In this document: piece after piece, positions 27,446 through 34,525 of the stretch
Layout of the letters: each line of letters opens with the position of its first letter
How positions within the stretch are numbered: position 1 is the first letter of the stretch
Assembly (NCBI GenBank): GCA_017854255.1
Contig: JAFMIA010000005.1
Location: 1 to 64,000 of the forward strand
Direction: 5' to 3'
DNA length: 64,000 nucleotides
Source: Pseudomonadales bacterium
Lineage (GTDB): Bacteria > Pseudomonadota > Gammaproteobacteria > Pseudomonadales > Azotimanducaceae
Translations under genes and position numbers: made by a program
The notes under the pieces: generated by a model
What the model was told of the DNA's origin: nothing
Database searches by the model: none
The model's input: the letters and a program-made list of their open reading frames with translations, nothing else

Positions 27446-29209
27446 ATGCAACAAGAGAAATTAACGGTCGCGGGATTGGTTCAAGACCTCGTTTCGGATC
27501 AACGACTGTCCGCCGCCGATGCAAAGCTGTTTGCCGCCGGGGTACGGCAAAGCCGAACCAAAATGAATCATCCCATTGAGTTAATCGATGCGGCAGGCCT
27601 GACGGATATGGCCAACCCGGCGCAAACCCTGACGGCGGAAACCTTGATGCTCTGGCTCAGCAAAAGATCGGACCTGTCTTACTATCGCGTTGATCCGCTT
27701 AAAATCGACACCCCTTCAGTCACCCGTGTCATGTCCAGCGAGTTTGCCCGGCGGCATCAGATCTTGGCGGTTGAAGTTAATGCCAGAGAAATTCTGATTA
27801 TTTGTAGCGAGCCCTATGTGACCAGCTGGGTCAGTATGATTGAGCAATCTCAGATCGGAAAAACGATTGTGCGGGCGCTCGCCAGTCCGGCTGATATCCG
27901 GCGTTATATTGACGAATTTTACGCGATGGCGAACTCCGTCAAAAAGGCATCGGCCCAAGGGTTGGCGGCGAGTGCGCTGGGTAACTTGGAGCAAATGGTC
28001 GAGCTCGGTCAATTGGATTCGATGGAGGCCAATGACACGCATATTGTGAATATCGTTGACTGGCTGTTGCAGTATGCCTTTACCCAACGCGCGAGTGATA
28101 TTCATATTGAACCCCGCCGTGAAAAGGGCGCAACCCGGTTCAGAATCGACGGCATTCTGCATACTGTTTACGAATTACCCATGCCGGTTGTGAGTGCCGT
28201 GATCAGTCGGATTAAGACGTTAGGGCGCATGAATGTTGCTGAAAAGCGCAGGCCCCAAGATGGGCGATTGAAAACGAGAACGCCTAACGGTCAGGAAATA
28301 GAGCTTCGGCTCTCAACCTTACCCACAGCCTTTGGCGAAAAGTTGGTCATGCGGATCTTTGATCCGGCTATTCTCCTGAAATCGTTTTCAGAATTGGGTT
28401 TAGAGGCGCAAGAGCAAGTTGTCTGGTCGCAAATGGTTGGCCAGCCGAATGGCATTGTTTTGGTAACGGGCCCTACAGGCTCTGGAAAGACCACCACGCT
28501 TTATACCAGCTTAAAGCAGTTGGCCACCGAAATGGTCAATGTGTGCACTATCGAAGATCCCATTGAGATGGTGGAAGACGCGTTCAATCAAATGCAAGTT
28601 CAGGCAAATATTGACCTATCTTTTGCCGAAGGCGTGCGGGCGCTGCTTCGACAGGACCCGGATATCATTATGGTGGGAGAAATCCGAGATCTCGAGACGG
28701 CCGAAATGGCGATTCAAGCCGCATTGACCGGACATCTGGTGATTTCGACGTTGCATACGAATGACGCGCCCGCCGCCATTACCCGGATGCTTGAATTGGG
28801 GGTCGCACCGTATTTAATTAAGGCGACCCTGTTGGGGGTTATGGCGCAACGACTGGTGCGAACGTTTTGTCCACATTGTCGCTATGACATTGAGCCGGAC
28901 CTCGATGGCTGGGCAGAACTGGTTCACCCCTGGGGGGTTGAGCCGCCGGTAAAAATGGCAGCAGCGGCGGGTTGTCAGGAATGTCGAGAAACCGGTTTTA
29001 AGGGCCGGGCCGGTCTTTATGAGCTTTTGACCATGAATGATCCGGTGAAGCAGCTGGTGGTTGGTCAGGCAGATGCCGGTCAGATCCGAAAAGCTGGGAT
29101 GCAAGCGGGGATGCGCACTTTGCGATTGAGCGGTGCCGAAAAAGTTGCAAAGGGTGAAACCAGCATTGCGGAAGTGCTGCGGGTAGCGCCCGTTTCAAGT
29201 TATGAGTAA
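27446..29209 (+). CDS. GspE/PilB-family secretion-type ATPase, stand-alone
   Basis: A 587-aa hexameric-type ATPase of the GspE/PulE/PilB group, which powers assembly of type II secretion pseudopili or type IV pili. An N-terminal GspE/MshE-like domain (about 1–160) precedes the ATPase core: Walker A GPTGSGKT at 342–349, Asp box IEDPIEM, Walker B DIIMVGEIRD near 406–415, His box STLHTNDA. A zinc-type four-Cys insertion is complete (Cys475, 478, 510, 513). The start at 27446 is preceded by GAGG. No pilin, secretin, prepilin peptidase or PilC-like gene lies nearby, so its partner machine is encoded elsewhere or it acts separately. Neighbours are argA (divergent) and an LpxL-type gene (convergent). 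Confidence 0.88.
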   Translation: MQQEKLTVAGLVQDLVSDQRLSAADAKLFAAGVRQSRTKMNHPIELIDAAGLTDMANPAQTLTAETLMLWLSKRSDLSYYRVDPLKIDTPSVTRVMSSEFARRHQILAVEVNAREILIICSEPYVTSWVSMIEQSQIGKTIVRALASPADIRRYIDEFYAMANSVKKASAQGLAASALGNLEQMVELGQLDSMEANDTHIVNIVDWLLQYAFTQRASDIHIEPRREKGATRFRIDGILHTVYELPMPVVSAVISRIKTLGRMNVAEKRRPQDGRLKTRTPNGQEIELRLSTLPTAFGEKLVMRIFDPAILLKSFSELGLEAQEQVVWSQMVGQPNGIVLVTGPTGSGKTTTLYTSLKQLATEMVNVCTIEDPIEMVEDAFNQMQVQANIDLSFAEGVRALLRQDPDIIMVGEIRDLETAEMAIQAALTGHLVISTLHTNDAPAAITRMLELGVAPYLIKATLLGVMAQRLVRTFCPHCRYDIEPDLDGWAELVHPWGVEPPVKMAAAAGCQECRETGFKGRAGLYELLTMNDPVKQLVVGQADAGQIRKAGMQAGMRTLRLSGAEKVAKGETSIAEVLRVAPVSSYE

Positions 29210-29231
29210 TGGTCGCTGGTTTTGTCTCGCC

Positions 29232-30149
29232 TCAGGCGTCGTACAAGGTTGAGCGACCCTGCTCGGTTGTTTTGAACCGGCGGTGGACCCACCAATATTG
29301 CTCTGGCGCGTCAGCAATGGCGCGCTCGATATGGCGGTTGATGAGGCTTGTATCCTCTAGATCGGACTGGGTTGGAAAAGGGGCCTCCGGCGTTTTGATC
29401 ACCACCGAATAACTGCCGTCAACGTGGCGGTAGTGACTCATGAAGACCACCTTGGCGCCGGTTAAGCGAGCAATGCGGTTCGCGGCTGTTGTGGTCGCGG
29501 CTGGCAGACTAAAAAACGGTGCAAAGACCGCATTCTGGCGCCCGTAATCTTGGTCGGGGGCGTACCAGAGCCGATTGCCTGCTTTAAGGTTTCGAATAAC
29601 GCCGCGAATATTGTGTTGATCCAGGGCCTGCTTGAAATGATGACCCCGGCCGCGTTGCATCAGCCATTCAAGCACCGGATTTTTATTGGTTTTATACATG
29701 ACGTTAAAGGGTCTTTGGCGGCTGAGTAAGGCGCCGGCTAAATCAAGGGTGGCAAAGTGCATACCGATGATCAGAATTCCCGGATCGGTTTCAGACCGAT
29801 CCAGGTGCTCAAGGCCGATGAAGCGCACGGTTAAATCCGTGATTTTTTGAGGGTGTAACCAAGTCGTTCCGGTTTCAATCAAACCCTTGGCAGTTGAGCG
29901 AAGATTGGCCTGCAGTAACTGCGCGCGCGCCTCGGGTGTCCAATCTGGAAAACACAGGGCAAGATTGACCCGGGCGATGCGGACACGTCGGGGCGCAAGG
30001 TACTTTGCGCTGCGACCCAGCAGCCCTGCAAGTCGTTGGCGCATAGGTTGAGGTAATCCAGTTAAAACGAAAGCGAGCGCAATCCCGGTCCAAGTCAGCC
30101 AGTAGCGCGGATGAAAGAGTTTAGGCGGTCGTTGATAACGCGTTTGCAC
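29232..30149 (-). CDS. lpxL: Lipid A biosynthesis acyltransferase (LpxL/HtrB family)
   Basis: An inner-membrane acyltransferase that adds a secondary acyl chain to the Kdo2-lipid A precursor. The 305-aa chain has one N-terminal membrane segment (about 15–32), the catalytic HX4D motif His131–Asp136 (GMHFATLDLAG), WYAPDQDYG and the C-terminal WWVHRRFKT. LpxL, LpxM and LpxP relatives cannot be separated by eye; LpxL is the best guess. The start is GTG at 30149; its GGAG site lies within a near-perfect hairpin (30153–30175), so translation might be controlled. It converges with the GspE-type gene with 22 bp between stops. Confidence 0.85.
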   Translation of the reverse strand: MQTRYQRPPKLFHPRYWLTWTGIALAFVLTGLPQPMRQRLAGLLGRSAKYLAPRRVRIARVNLALCFPDWTPEARAQLLQANLRSTAKGLIETGTTWLHPQKITDLTVRFIGLEHLDRSETDPGILIIGMHFATLDLAGALLSRQRPFNVMYKTNKNPVLEWLMQRGRGHHFKQALDQHNIRGVIRNLKAGNRLWYAPDQDYGRQNAVFAPFFSLPAATTTAANRIARLTGAKVVFMSHYRHVDGSYSVVIKTPEAPFPTQSDLEDTSLINRHIERAIADAPEQYWWVHRRFKTTEQGRSTLYDA

Positions 30150-30152
30150 GGT

Positions 30153-30175
30153 AATGGCTCCATCGATGGGCCATT
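30153..30175 (-). promoter_or_regulatory. Hairpin overlapping the lpxL ribosome-binding site
   Basis: In the mRNA sense, AAUGGC-CCA, loop UCGA, UGG-A-GCCAUU forms a 9-bp stem with one bulged A, ending 3 nt before the GTG start. The presumed Shine-Dalgarno GGAG is inside the stem. At the DNA level it is also a near-palindrome around CCATCGATGG, so an operator is an alternative reading. Confidence 0.45.
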
Positions 30176-30354
30176 GTAAGGTGAAAATCGGTCTTTATAG
30201 AAATCGGGCGGGCAGTGCTAGGGTCTTTTCTCTATCGTAAATTGTCAGACAGTTGATCAGGCTGCGCCCTCGAGGCGGAAGACGGTGGATCTGGGAATAG
30301 ACCACGCGCGCATCAGGACAAAATCAAACCAGGTGTTTAGAAAAGCTTAAGGGT

Positions 30355-30383
30355 GATTGAGGATGCACCGGGCATCCTCAATC
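30355..30383 (-). terminator. Strong 12-bp hairpin downstream of the fasciclin gene
   Basis: GATTGAGGATGC and GCATCCTCAATC form a perfect 12-bp stem with a 5-nt loop, about 50 bp past the stop of the fasciclin gene. It lacks a clean U-run in either direction, so it is a candidate Rho-assisted terminator or 3'-end stabiliser. The rest of 30176–30435 shows no gene. Confidence 0.55.
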
Positions 30384-30435
30384 CATAGGTTAGGCAGGGG
30401 CTCATCGACAAGCCGCCTGCGCGCATGGGCTAAAC

Positions 30436-32304
30436 CTACTCGCTCGCAGGGTCTGTAATAACGCGATCAATGACATGAATAATGCCGTTGGTCGTGTAGA
30501 TGTCGCTGGAGATTACCTTGGCGCCTTGAATGCGTAAGCTGCCATCTTCAATAGCGATCCCGACTGCTTTTCCAGAAAGGGTTTCAACCATAGTGCCATT
30601 CAATGAGTAGGCAGTCACAGCGTCAACTGCTGAGCCCGCGATAACGTGGGTTGTCAGCAGTGTTGTTAAGGCTTCGGTATCTGCCAACAGGGCGGACAGC
30701 GCATCGGCGTCAATGAGGTCGAAGGCGGCGTCGGTCGGCGCGAACACGGTGAGTTTGCTATCCGGATCGCTCAGGGCATCAACGAGGCCGGCAGTTTCAA
30801 GGGCTGTCACCAAAGTCGTAAAGGTTCCTGCAGCGACGGCTGTGTCAACAATATTCGTTGTGACATCGCCTTTCGAGGGCGGTGGCAGCATGACGTTATC
30901 GATAACATGAATGACGCCATTTGACGCCATAACGTTGGCGCTCGTGACGGACGCCAAGTTTACAGTAAGACCAGTATCGCTTAGGGAAAGGGCCGTTCGG
31001 CCACCCGATTTTTCGGCGGTTGCATTGGCCATTTCGAGAATAGACTGATCGGAGGCTGCCACCGAGATTGCCCCATCCGCAAGTACGACTGCATCAGCGT
31101 AGACGTGGTAGAGCAGGATATCTGCGAGTGTTGCAGGATCCGCCAGCAGGCCGTTGATGGCGTCTGTACCCAATTTTGCGAAGGCTGCGTCGGTGGGCGC
31201 AAATACGGTGTAGCTTTTATCGGCGTCGGTTAACGCCCCAACCAGGTCCGCGGCGGAAAGGGCGGCGAGCAGCGTCTCGAAGCTACCCGCAGCGGTTGCG
31301 ACTTCAGCAATATTAAGGGTCGGTGTGGGCAGCCCGGCTGCCCCAACAATGACCGTATCAATGACGTGGATCACGCCATTGGATGCGTGTATGTCAGCGA
31401 TGATGACTTTCGCGCCGCCAACGCGTAGTTCGCGCTTACTAGAAATTGAAATCGGCACTTCAGCGCCGCCAACGGTGGTCGCAGCGTTGCCACTGAGCGA
31501 GTAGGCTGTTACGGCATCGACAGCCGCGTCTGTGATGACGTGCTGCTGGAGAATTTCGGTTAAATTGTCGAGATCAGCCAGAAGCGCCGTCACGTTTGCC
31601 GAGCCCATCGCGTCGAAAGCAGCGTCGGTCGGCGCGAATACCGTAAAGGTGTCGGTCTCGCTGGCGAGGACGGTATCAAGACCGGTGGCACCGAGCGCGG
31701 CGACCAGCGTTGTGAAGCGCTCGTCGGCTGCAGCAATATTGACGATGGTGCTTTCGCTGGGCGTTGCATCCGCCGGCGGCATCAGAACGGCGTCGATCAC
31801 ATGGATCACGCCATTGTCGGCTTGAATGTCAGTTGCGGTGACTTTGGAAAGGTTCAGAAATAGGGCGTCGTTCTTGGCTGATACGCCAACCCGATCACCA
31901 TTTGCCATTTCAACGGTCGTTCCCACAGCGTCAGTGGCGGCGGTGGAATCGAGCGCGGTACCACTAACGACGTGATAAAGCAGGATGTCGGACAAGGTAT
32001 CCGGATCAGCTAAAAGATCATTGATTGCCGTCTCACCCAGTAGCGCAAAGGCTGCATCGGTCGGCGCGAAAACGGTGAGCGTTGCGGATGCGTCGTCGAT
32101 CGTGCTCGTCAGACCTGCTGCATCGATCGCGGCTATGAGCGTCGTGAAGTTACCGGCCTCGATTGCAACGTCGAGTATGGTCGGCGTTGGCGCTGGCAAA
32201 TCTGCTAGTGGAACCGGCTCTGGTGTTTTCGTATCAATGCCGTCGCAAGCGGTCAGGGCCAAGCAGGCTAAAACGAGGCCGGCAAATTTATTGAGTAAAC
32301 GCAT
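30436..32304 (-). CDS. Lipoprotein with four fasciclin (FAS1) domains
   Basis: A 622-aa exported lipoprotein. Residues 1–20 are a signal peptide ending in lipobox LTAC, so Cys20 would be lipidated by Lgt. Asp21 follows the Cys, and in E. coli an Asp there favours the inner membrane, so the final location is uncertain. Four FAS1 domains follow at about 42–175, 187–320, 329–473 and 483–617, each with the TVFAPTDAAF motif and an ending like NGVIHVID. Domains 1 and 3 resemble each other (DILLYHV), as do 2 and 4 (HVI…AVDAVTAYSL), so the gene looks like a duplicated two-domain unit. FAS1 domains usually act in adhesion or cell-surface interactions; the ligand is unknown. It is a single-gene unit with hairpin downstream and an ECF-like promoter upstream. 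Confidence 0.93.
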   Translation of the reverse strand: MRLLNKFAGLVLACLALTACDGIDTKTPEPVPLADLPAPTPTILDVAIEAGNFTTLIAAIDAAGLTSTIDDASATLTVFAPTDAAFALLGETAINDLLADPDTLSDILLYHVVSGTALDSTAATDAVGTTVEMANGDRVGVSAKNDALFLNLSKVTATDIQADNGVIHVIDAVLMPPADATPSESTIVNIAAADERFTTLVAALGATGLDTVLASETDTFTVFAPTDAAFDAMGSANVTALLADLDNLTEILQQHVITDAAVDAVTAYSLSGNAATTVGGAEVPISISSKRELRVGGAKVIIADIHASNGVIHVIDTVIVGAAGLPTPTLNIAEVATAAGSFETLLAALSAADLVGALTDADKSYTVFAPTDAAFAKLGTDAINGLLADPATLADILLYHVYADAVVLADGAISVAASDQSILEMANATAEKSGGRTALSLSDTGLTVNLASVTSANVMASNGVIHVIDNVMLPPPSKGDVTTNIVDTAVAAGTFTTLVTALETAGLVDALSDPDSKLTVFAPTDAAFDLIDADALSALLADTEALTTLLTTHVIAGSAVDAVTAYSLNGTMVETLSGKAVGIAIEDGSLRIQGAKVISSDIYTTNGIIHVIDRVITDPASE

Positions 32305-32340
32305 GATTGTTATCCTTAGTTATGAGCGTTAATCGGAAGT

Positions 32341-32366
32341 TACGTCGAGCCGGTTAGAACAGATCA
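32341..32366 (-). promoter_or_regulatory. Possible ECF-sigma promoter of the fasciclin gene
   Basis: On the minus strand TGATC and CGTA are separated by 17 nt, with CGTA 36 nt before the ATG. This resembles promoters read by RpoE–ChrR-type (ECF11) sigma factors that answer singlet oxygen; I recall a fasciclin gene in that regulon in Rhodobacter sphaeroides. AAGGAT 8 nt before the ATG would be the ribosome-binding site. The elements are short, so chance occurrence is possible. Confidence 0.35.
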
Positions 32367-32798
32367 CACTGCTCTTGAGGTCAGTAAGAACCGAATTTTT
32401 TTATCAGACTAAAAATCCTTGTTATCCTCGGGCGCGTCGCCAGTTCCCTGGCCAGTCGCGTCAGCTGTGATTAGCGCGATCAGAAGATGGGTCAGTCAGC
32501 CTTTTGATTGCAGGAACCAGCCGATCGAAAACCCGACTGATGTGTCGTCGAGGCGCTGGCATTCAAAAAAGCGTCGGTTGTTGATCGTTTAGGTCTGTTG
32601 GCGGTGAGCGGTTTTTTGGATCATTATCCTGAACTAACCCTAGGCCTGTCAGGATCGTCTGAAGAACATCTGGATCGTTAAAAGAGGCGCGAGTGTAAGG
32701 CAAGAATCCGTCTTTACAGAATTCCGGCTATGGTAAACTTCTGCTGGCATCTAGTTTTGCGGCGCCATTCAAGGCCCTAATCATACAGCGACGTTTCG
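32367..32798. other. Long intergenic stretch without a recognised gene
   Basis: About 430 bp between the fasciclin promoter region and waaA. I found no plausible coding frame, tRNA, repeat or clear hairpin terminator. It has scattered GATC-rich segments and a T/A-rich patch near 32396–32420. The waaA promoter is the only element I can suggest in it. A small RNA cannot be excluded. Confidence 0.5.
32713..32739 (+). promoter_or_regulatory. Candidate waaA promoter
   Basis: TTTACA and TAAACT are 15 bp apart, and TGG directly before TAAACT makes an extended -10. The start of transcription would be about 50 bp before the waaA ATG. Spacing is short for a standard sigma70 promoter, so confidence is limited. 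Confidence 0.35.
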
Positions 32799-34076
32799 AT
32801 GGTTCGATTTCTTTACAATATTTTGATCCCGCTACTGATTCCGGGGGCCCTGATTCGGCTTTGGTTCCGGGGTCGCGCTGAGCCTGCTTATCGACATCAC
32901 TTGGCAGAGCGCTTTGGTCATCTGCCATCGAATTTGGGGGCCGGCGCGGATATTTGGTTGCATGCGGTTTCGGCCGGTGAAAGCATTGCAGCGGCGCCCT
33001 TGATTGAGGCCTTGTTAGCCCGAGGCCATACGCTGGTTTTGTCAACGACCACGCCGACGGGGCGAGCCCAATTGATGCGCCAGTTTTCTGGCCGCGCCGT
33101 GATTTGCTACGGCCCCTTTGATGTGCCGCGCTGTATTAAGCGCTTTTTAAACCAAGTCAGACCAAAGCTCGCATTAATGATTGAAACTGAAATTTGGCCT
33201 AACTGGACGACCGCCTGCGCGTCGCGAGGGATTCCAGTTGCGTTGCTCAATGGCCGGCTCTCTGAGCGATCGTTTAGTGGGTATCAAAAGCTCGGTTCGA
33301 TGATGCGGGCTACCCTGCGTCAGTTCAGCTGGATTGCAGTGCAATCGACTGCCCATGCGAACCGGTTCACCGCCCTCGGTGCCACAGCGGATCAATTGTC
33401 GGTTACGGGGTCGATCAAGGCAGATCAAACGCTCCCGGCAGATTTTATCGAACAAGTCGCGATGATTCAGGCAAAGTGTGCCCATCGTCCGCTGTTGCTC
33501 GCAGCCAGCACCCATCCTGGAGAAGAAGAGATCCTGTTAGCGTCCTTTAAGGCGTTAAAAGTTGCGCATCCTGACCTGCTGATGGTGTTGGTTCCGCGCC
33601 ATGTGCAACGGGCAATTGCCTTGCAAACGCTGTCCGCTGAGCTGGGATTAGTGTCTTGCCGAGCAACCCTCGACCGGGTTGCCGAGGATACGGATGTGAT
33701 CATCGTTGATGTTATGGGTCAGCTCTTATATTGGTATGGTGCGAGCTCGGTTGCCTTTGTGGGCGGCAGTCTGGTGCCTCATGGCGGGCACAATTTTTTA
33801 GAGGCGGCGCTGTGTGGTTGCGCCATTGTGACCGGGCCTTGGGTCTTTAACTTTGAAGCCCAGGCCGAACAGTTTCAGCGCGCCGAGGCACTAACGCTCG
33901 TTGCGGATGAACACGCGCTGAGTGCCGCATTCGAGACGCTGTTGGTGGATCCTGTGATCAGGCAGCAGCAGATTGAACGCGCGCAACAATTGGTTGATGA
34001 GAGTCGCGGCGCGCTGGATCAATTATTGACGGGGCTCTCGCCTTGGCTGCCCGATCGAGCGGGCGTGCCAAGATGA
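32799..34076 (+). CDS. waaA: 3-deoxy-D-manno-octulosonic acid (Kdo) transferase
   Basis: Attaches Kdo residues from CMP-Kdo to lipid IVA at the inner face of the inner membrane. The 425-aa GT-B glycosyltransferase has an N-terminal hydrophobic anchor (about 1–22), WLHAVSAGES with the catalytic Glu61, ETEIWPN, and VGGSLVPHGGHNFLEAA around 319–335, all characteristic. It starts with ATG 32799. Its stop overlaps the arsC start (ATGA at 34073–34076). With lpxL at 29–30 kb it shows that the organism makes lipid A with a Kdo inner core. Confidence 0.96.
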   Translation: MVRFLYNILIPLLIPGALIRLWFRGRAEPAYRHHLAERFGHLPSNLGAGADIWLHAVSAGESIAAAPLIEALLARGHTLVLSTTTPTGRAQLMRQFSGRAVICYGPFDVPRCIKRFLNQVRPKLALMIETEIWPNWTTACASRGIPVALLNGRLSERSFSGYQKLGSMMRATLRQFSWIAVQSTAHANRFTALGATADQLSVTGSIKADQTLPADFIEQVAMIQAKCAHRPLLLAASTHPGEEEILLASFKALKVAHPDLLMVLVPRHVQRAIALQTLSAELGLVSCRATLDRVAEDTDVIIVDVMGQLLYWYGASSVAFVGGSLVPHGGHNFLEAALCGCAIVTGPWVFNFEAQAEQFQRAEALTLVADEHALSAAFETLLVDPVIRQQQIERAQQLVDESRGALDQLLTGLSPWLPDRAGVPR

Positions 34077-34525
34077 AAATGCTGTTTTTATGCACTGGGA
34101 ATGCTTGCCGGTCACAAATGGCGGAAGGTTGGGCACGGGCCTTGGCAAACCCCTCGGCAGTGATTCAATCAGCTGGAATCAAGGCCCATGGTTTAAATCC
34201 TCGAGCGGTTCAAGTGATGTTGGAAGCCGGGGTTGATATCAGTGCTCAGACCTCAAAGGTGATCAGTACGCGCGACTTTGACGGACTCGATCTGGTTGTA
34301 ACGGTTTGTGGGCATGCTGATGAGCATTGCCCTGTCGTGCCGGCAAGGGTTGCAAGAATCCATTGGCCGCTCCCAGACCCGGCCGGCGCTGAAGGTTTGG
34401 TGGCCGATATCGAGACCGTTTTTAGAGCCTCTCGCGATGATATTCGGGATCGCGTGCAGGCGCTTTTGATCGAGTATGATTGTTTAAAGGCGGCTTCGGA
34501 CGAACGCTTGGCCCCGAAAAGGTGA
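34073..34525 (+). CDS. arsC: Thioredoxin-type arsenate reductase (LMW-PTP fold)
   Basis: A 150-aa protein with a low-molecular-weight phosphatase fold. The P-loop CX5R is Cys7–Arg13 (CTGNACRS), with a second Cys at 12. The redox pair of the Staphylococcus-type arsenate reductase is present as Cys79 and Cys86 (VCGHADEHCPVVP), followed by a conserved DPAG. These features indicate arsenate reduction with electrons from thioredoxin, not simple phosphatase activity. It overlaps waaA by ATGA and is therefore translationally coupled to it. No arsR, arsB or acr3 gene is adjacent, which is unusual for an arsenic gene. Confidence 0.87.
   Translation: MKMLFLCTGNACRSQMAEGWARALANPSAVIQSAGIKAHGLNPRAVQVMLEAGVDISAQTSKVISTRDFDGLDLVVTVCGHADEHCPVVPARVARIHWPLPDPAGAEGLVADIETVFRASRDDIRDRVQALLIEYDCLKAASDERLAPKR

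Follow-up and report, generated by a model that had tools for sequence, protein, structure and literature searches.

A putative RpoE–ChrR (ECF11) promoter precedes a four-domain fasciclin gene in a member of the Azotimanducaceae and recurs before fasciclin genes of other Gammaproteobacteria

A close known counterpart of the locus reported here is the RpoE–ChrR system of Rhodobacter sphaeroides, in which RpoE is held by ChrR until singlet oxygen leads to the loss of ChrR (PMC6852236, in the relevant passages). The R. sphaeroides RpoE regulon, as tabulated in PMC7074977, includes the gene of a FAS1 protein, RSP_1409 (‘Beta-Ig-H3/fasciclin’; raised under photooxidative stress by log2 values of 2.8 and 4.5), as we propose for the gammaproteobacterium studied here, and this entry bears out the original prediction, which had placed a fasciclin gene among the targets of RpoE in Rhodobacter. 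The same table lists the GTP cyclohydrolase gene folE2; in the present genome a folE gene belongs to the rpoE–chrR operon. The R. sphaeroides fasciclin protein Fdp, which we assume to be the product of RSP_1409, is described in the pertinent section of PMC10147662 as single-domain, whereas the protein encoded here has four FAS1 domains. In another alphaproteobacterium, Azospirillum brasilense Sp7, fasciclin-mediated flocculation is placed under the control of RpoE–ChrR (Dubey et al. 2021, as cited in the relevant passage of PMC10949492). A further parallel is AstaP of green algae, a FAS1 carotenoprotein inducible by photooxidative stress, with which our protein shares the FAS1 fold and, as proposed here, induction by light stress (PMC7477208 and PMC10147662, in excerpt); the carotenoid binding of AstaP is presented as an algal neofunctionalisation, a cyanobacterial homologue having bound no carotenoids (PMC10147662).

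ECF11 promoters have been described in Pseudomonas syringae, whose consensus TGATCC-N16-CGTA has a spacing identical to that of our fasciclin site and in which a T at position 6 also occurs (PMC5507510, in the sections on these sites), and in Shewanella oneidensis, whose RpoE2 sites likewise resemble the fasciclin site (corresponding section of PMC4336711). The word ‘fasciclin’ is absent from the main text of both the P. syringae and the Shewanella paper.

The window analysed here, the whole stretch of 64,000 nt from a Pseudomonadales genome (contig JAFMIA010000005.1, positions 1 to 64,000), contains a minus-strand fasciclin gene (30436–32304) for a protein of 622 aa with a signal peptide bearing a lipobox (LTAC, identified by eye) and four FAS1 domains. 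A Pfam search matched PF02469 to four stretches of this protein (E 2.3e-121), a search of the window's own genome gave four FAS1 domain matches in it, and its sequence also matched the AstaP structure PDB 8c18 (E 4.3e-11). Upstream of the gene, the minus strand at 32366–32341 reads TGATCTGTTCTAACCGGCTCGACGTA, i.e. TGATC-N17-CGTA (equivalently TGATCT-N16-CGTA), and then AC. The putative −35 element TGATCT (32361–32366) is followed after 16 nt by the putative −10 element CGTA (32341–32344), and a further 36 nt (32305–32340), in which an AAGGA ribosome-binding site precedes the start, separate CGTA from the ATG at 32304; transcription would begin in the first bases of this interval. Direct reading of the strand thus confirmed the arrangement from which the prediction set out, and the site has the form TGATC(C/T)-N16-CGTA expected of an ECF11 promoter from the P. 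syringae consensus.

The prediction also depended on an ECF11 sigma factor being encoded in the genome, and a search for rpoE–chrR recovered the pair. Sigma-70 region 2 was matched by six genes genome-wide, among which an ECF sigma gene on contig C15 (34826–35035) is directly followed by chrR, the two ORFs overlapping in the order rpoE–chrR. The sigma factor matched PF04542 and PF08281/PF04545 without the region 3 model, and among solved structures R. sphaeroides RpoE is the closest to it (2q1z, E 7.1e-36). Its partner scored 174 bits against TIGR02451 (anti_sig_ChrR; cut-off 124.5), and its HxxxCxxC (HLQFCDQC) and cupin HxHxxxE (HDHKGTE) motifs align with those of R. sphaeroides ChrR (2z2s). 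By these matches the C15 pair is assigned as an RpoE–ChrR (ECF11) sigma/anti-sigma system.

The pair belongs to an operon transcribed from one strand in the order folE–lipocalin–rpoE–chrR, which contains three of the 20 exact genome copies of TGATC-N17-CGTA (C15:36545, 35783 and 35179). The folE site has its CGTA 33 nt before an in-frame ATG, the lipocalin-associated exact site lies close to where the lipocalin ORF begins, and the rpoE site has its CGTA 32 nt before an in-frame ATG, the longest rpoE frame opening earlier. The sigma factor's own operon carries the same motif as the fasciclin gene, as would be expected of an ECF11 promoter. FolE and the FolE2 of R. sphaeroides belong to different enzyme families. 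On the opposite strand, some 1.5 kb away from where folE starts, is a photolyase gene. At locus L163 (8209–9571), folE, which encodes GTP cyclohydrolase I, and a lipocalin gene were noted as part of the rpoE–chrR gene run, where both have their own ECF11-type sites.

Within the window the string by itself is not significant, because 18 of 100 shuffles reach the two matches that the N16–18 pattern returns there (0.82 expected). The other exact copy (21826–21801) is antisense inside another long ORF, and it was set aside as a promoter site on this account. Across the genome (3.36 Mb) the N17 pattern has 20 exact copies, which mostly lie within ORFs or antisense to them, and shows no excess over other spacers, for which 582 matches over 25 spacers correspond to about 23 per spacer (an approximate figure, as the variable-gap scan gives one match where several share an end). 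A reversed-pattern control appeared more favourable (4 versus 20 exact copies); we set it aside as flattering and place more trust in the spacer control, because the reversed half-site contains CTAG, a sequence that is scarce in many bacteria. The stricter form TGATCY-N16-CGTAW occurs at six sites in the genome, three in the folE–lipocalin–rpoE–chrR operon, one before the fasciclin gene and two that lie within long ORFs or run antisense to them. The incomplete, 2.2-Mb genome of the closest relative (G100, locus L054) has only two such sites, one upstream of rpoE and the other upstream of fasciclin. The number of stricter matches fails to separate nine ChrR-bearing genomes (2–12) from four ChrR-lacking ones (4, 7, 6 and 16). 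Motif count alone was therefore rejected as evidence, the N17 form being unenriched genome-wide and the stricter form equally common without ChrR, and the case for a promoter rests on position and conservation.

A scan of public genomes returned 79 loci with relatives of the fasciclin gene, 34 of them gammaproteobacterial and 45 from other groups, as classed by the titles of their records; three of the latter (L092, L111 and L127) were dropped for short upstream sequence, leaving 42, among which L132 is the single alphaproteobacterium. In the 200 nt that precede the start, exact TGATC-N17-CGTA was present in 16/34 gammaproteobacterial loci versus 0/42 others. When spacers of 10–24 were compared in the gammaproteobacterial loci, N16 and N18 gave one match each and no spacer other than these and N17 gave any, and 1000 permuted motif pairs yielded 0/34 in 981 trials and 1/34 in 19. 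The two closest relatives (L054 and L055) retain TGATCT and CGTA without change, although L055 departs from the window at seven of the 16 spacer positions.

We then set 29 ChrR-bearing gammaproteobacterial loci against four ChrR-lacking ones (L074, L086, L089 and L091, where lacking denotes no match or a match to the cupin part only), with L077 outside the comparison. The exact site occurs within 150 nt before the start in 16/29 ChrR-bearing loci versus 0/4, all 16 exact-site loci being in ChrR-bearing genomes, and in 1.2 % of 165-nt stretches drawn at random from these loci; the frequency among ChrR-bearing relatives relative to random stretches places the site above chance. Under a looser criterion (a single mismatch tolerated, or a spacer longer or shorter by 1 nt, again within 150 nt) the counts are 22/29 and 0/4, with 2.8 % of random stretches of these loci qualifying. 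In L064 and L067 the use of an upstream GTG as the start hides one-mismatch sites, and the count was left at 22/29; the ChrR-bearing loci L076, L087 and L100 have no site.

A second set was drawn from the window's own GTDB family, in which 16 of 100 genomes gave a fasciclin match. With a reach of 250 nt upstream of the ORF, exact N16 and N18 forms counted as well (L038) and L048 and L053 dropped as having no upstream sequence, a site was present in 4/6 loci with full-length ChrR (two exact sites, one with a mismatch and one with a spacer of 18) versus 0/9 without; L040 and L051 have full-length ChrR in the genome and no site. The p-values of these comparisons (0.10 for the exact site, Fisher 0.008 for the looser criterion and 0.011 for the second set) are optimistic, because related species share ancestry and are not independent samples. 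The pattern in both sets is that of a site conserved with ChrR and absent without it, as would be expected of an ECF11 promoter. Together with the presence of rpoE–chrR in the genome, the conservation before many gammaproteobacterial fasciclin genes lends support to the likeness to sites of the singlet-oxygen sigma factor that had first been suggested. One member of the family (G052, locus L052) has a second fasciclin-like gene whose upstream region contains an exact ECF11-type site, at 6 or 69 nt depending on which possible start is taken.

In 9/34 gammaproteobacterial loci, rpoE–chrR is located within 3 kb of the fasciclin gene. Eight linked loci (Thalassotalea, Colwellia, Thalassomonas and Litorilituus) show the one-strand order fasciclin, LON domain, rpoE, chrR, with DUF3833 upstream in seven of the eight, and in L075 the fasciclin gene is followed by DUF2878, DUF3833 and LON genes as far as the locus extends. 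A Lon-domain gene of Shewanella is listed as RpoE2-dependent by motif (PMC4336711, in the part concerned). In Gilvimarinus (L058), rpoE–chrR and fasciclin are divergent, and the region that separates them has three exact sites, of which two are oriented towards rpoE and one towards fasciclin.

The fasciclin gene of the window is contained in an apparently accessory segment (30204–32696), whose flanks (28001–30203 and 32697–34152) are collinear with a genome of the same genus (G071) at ~88 % identity. The corresponding slot in G071 holds ~1.3 kb of other sequence with a 264-residue ORF and no fasciclin gene; this 1.3 kb lacks an exact site and has one match with a single mismatch, at a spacer of 16. 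G071 is one of four other genomes sampled from the genus, all of which encode full-length ChrR and gave no fasciclin match. In the G071 comparison, the fasciclin gene and its putative promoter appear to have been gained or lost together. We conclude that fasciclin is a predicted accessory ECF11 target common to many marine Gammaproteobacteria.

With a probability that we put at roughly 0.92, the site is a promoter read by ECF11 RpoE, such that RpoE, held by ChrR and freed by singlet oxygen or organic peroxides, would drive expression of the four-domain FAS1 lipoprotein. The pairing of promoter and fasciclin gene is itself very probably real, because the switch and the gene occur together in many marine relatives. 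The scatter of exact copies over the genome, mostly in or antisense to ORFs, and the many copies in ChrR-lacking genomes would also suit a chance match, with fasciclin transcribed from another, sigma-70-type promoter further upstream; the 494-nt gap between the fasciclin gene and its divergent neighbour leaves room for one, and a sigma-70-like site is present at 32652–32623 on the minus strand (mean 0.5 in shuffles). A coincidence of this kind is, however, hard to reconcile with the recurrence of the element at the same place and exact spacing in 16 of the 34 gammaproteobacterial loci, every one of them ChrR-bearing, and with a spacer that diverges between close relatives, and we judge it very improbable.

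We consider it less probable still that the site is used by the envelope-stress sigma-E in place of the ECF11 factor. The genome does have a second ECF-type sigma gene, on contig C51, which is followed by a gene that looks RseA-like by eye; however, the published Shewanella sigma-E motif, GAACTT..TCTACA (motif section of PMC4336711), is unlike the fasciclin site, and among the gammaproteobacterial genomes compared, those that lack full-length ChrR have no such site before fasciclin.

If the site is read by ECF11 RpoE, the zinc-binding anti-sigma factor ChrR would normally keep RpoE inactive until ChrR is itself inactivated by singlet oxygen or organic peroxides. The released RpoE would then recognise the TGATCT and CGTA elements and initiate transcription ~30 nt ahead of the fasciclin ATG, and the product would be a four-domain FAS1 lipoprotein placed on the cell envelope under photooxidative stress. 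The signal and the release of RpoE by ChrR we infer from Rhodobacter, and a role of the fasciclin protein in flocculation and photooxidative tolerance would follow by analogy with Azospirillum; the likely outcome here is that photooxidative stress leads the cell to produce a FAS1 lipoprotein at its surface. It is doubtful that multi-domain FAS1 lipoproteins serve marine Gammaproteobacteria in general as photooxidative-stress effectors, acquired together with their ECF11 promoter as one unit and protecting by cell clumping or by an envelope-held lipid or carotenoid quencher, in parallel to algal AstaP.

Fasciclin under RpoE–ChrR is a pattern already known in other bacteria, and the sequence comparisons suggest that the ECF11–fasciclin link reaches wider in Gammaproteobacteria than the cited papers describe. 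Among the literature matches listed, none linked fasciclin with the ChrR anti-sigma factor in Gammaproteobacteria; the matches for fasciclin and chrR concerned alphaproteobacteria, cited work on them or used chrR for chromate reductase. Such a gammaproteobacterial link would most probably be listed in comparative studies such as that of Dufour et al. 2008. The association would connect a family of bacterial surface proteins about which little is understood with a defined light-stress circuit of marine Gammaproteobacteria. The isolates Gilvimarinus gilvus, Pseudoalteromonas luteoviolacea and Litorilituus lipolyticus, which have an exact site, offer a means of asking what fasciclin does under singlet oxygen.

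The suggestion that similar sites would be found before photolyase, cfa-like and rpoH genes did not hold in this genome. Scans upstream of the photolyase genes (C15), the cfa operon (C109) and both rpoH-like genes gave only matches with at least two mismatches, and the one-mismatch matches in these regions are inside genes. Judged by close matches, the regulon therefore looks small, and the photolyase, cfa and rpoH genes of the ECF11 core regulon are not preceded by such a site here. The two sigma-32-type factors (L008 and L011; C52 and C132), RpoH-like by eye, recall RpoHI and RpoHII of Rhodobacter, and the RpoH-like gene on C52 has CGTAA with a poor −35 just upstream. Finally, an exact TGATCT-N16-CGTA was detected on C64 (19976–20001; L164:2477–2502, minus strand) 29 nt upstream of the start codon (ATG) of an ORF of 59 residues, which is possibly a small-protein member of the same regulon.
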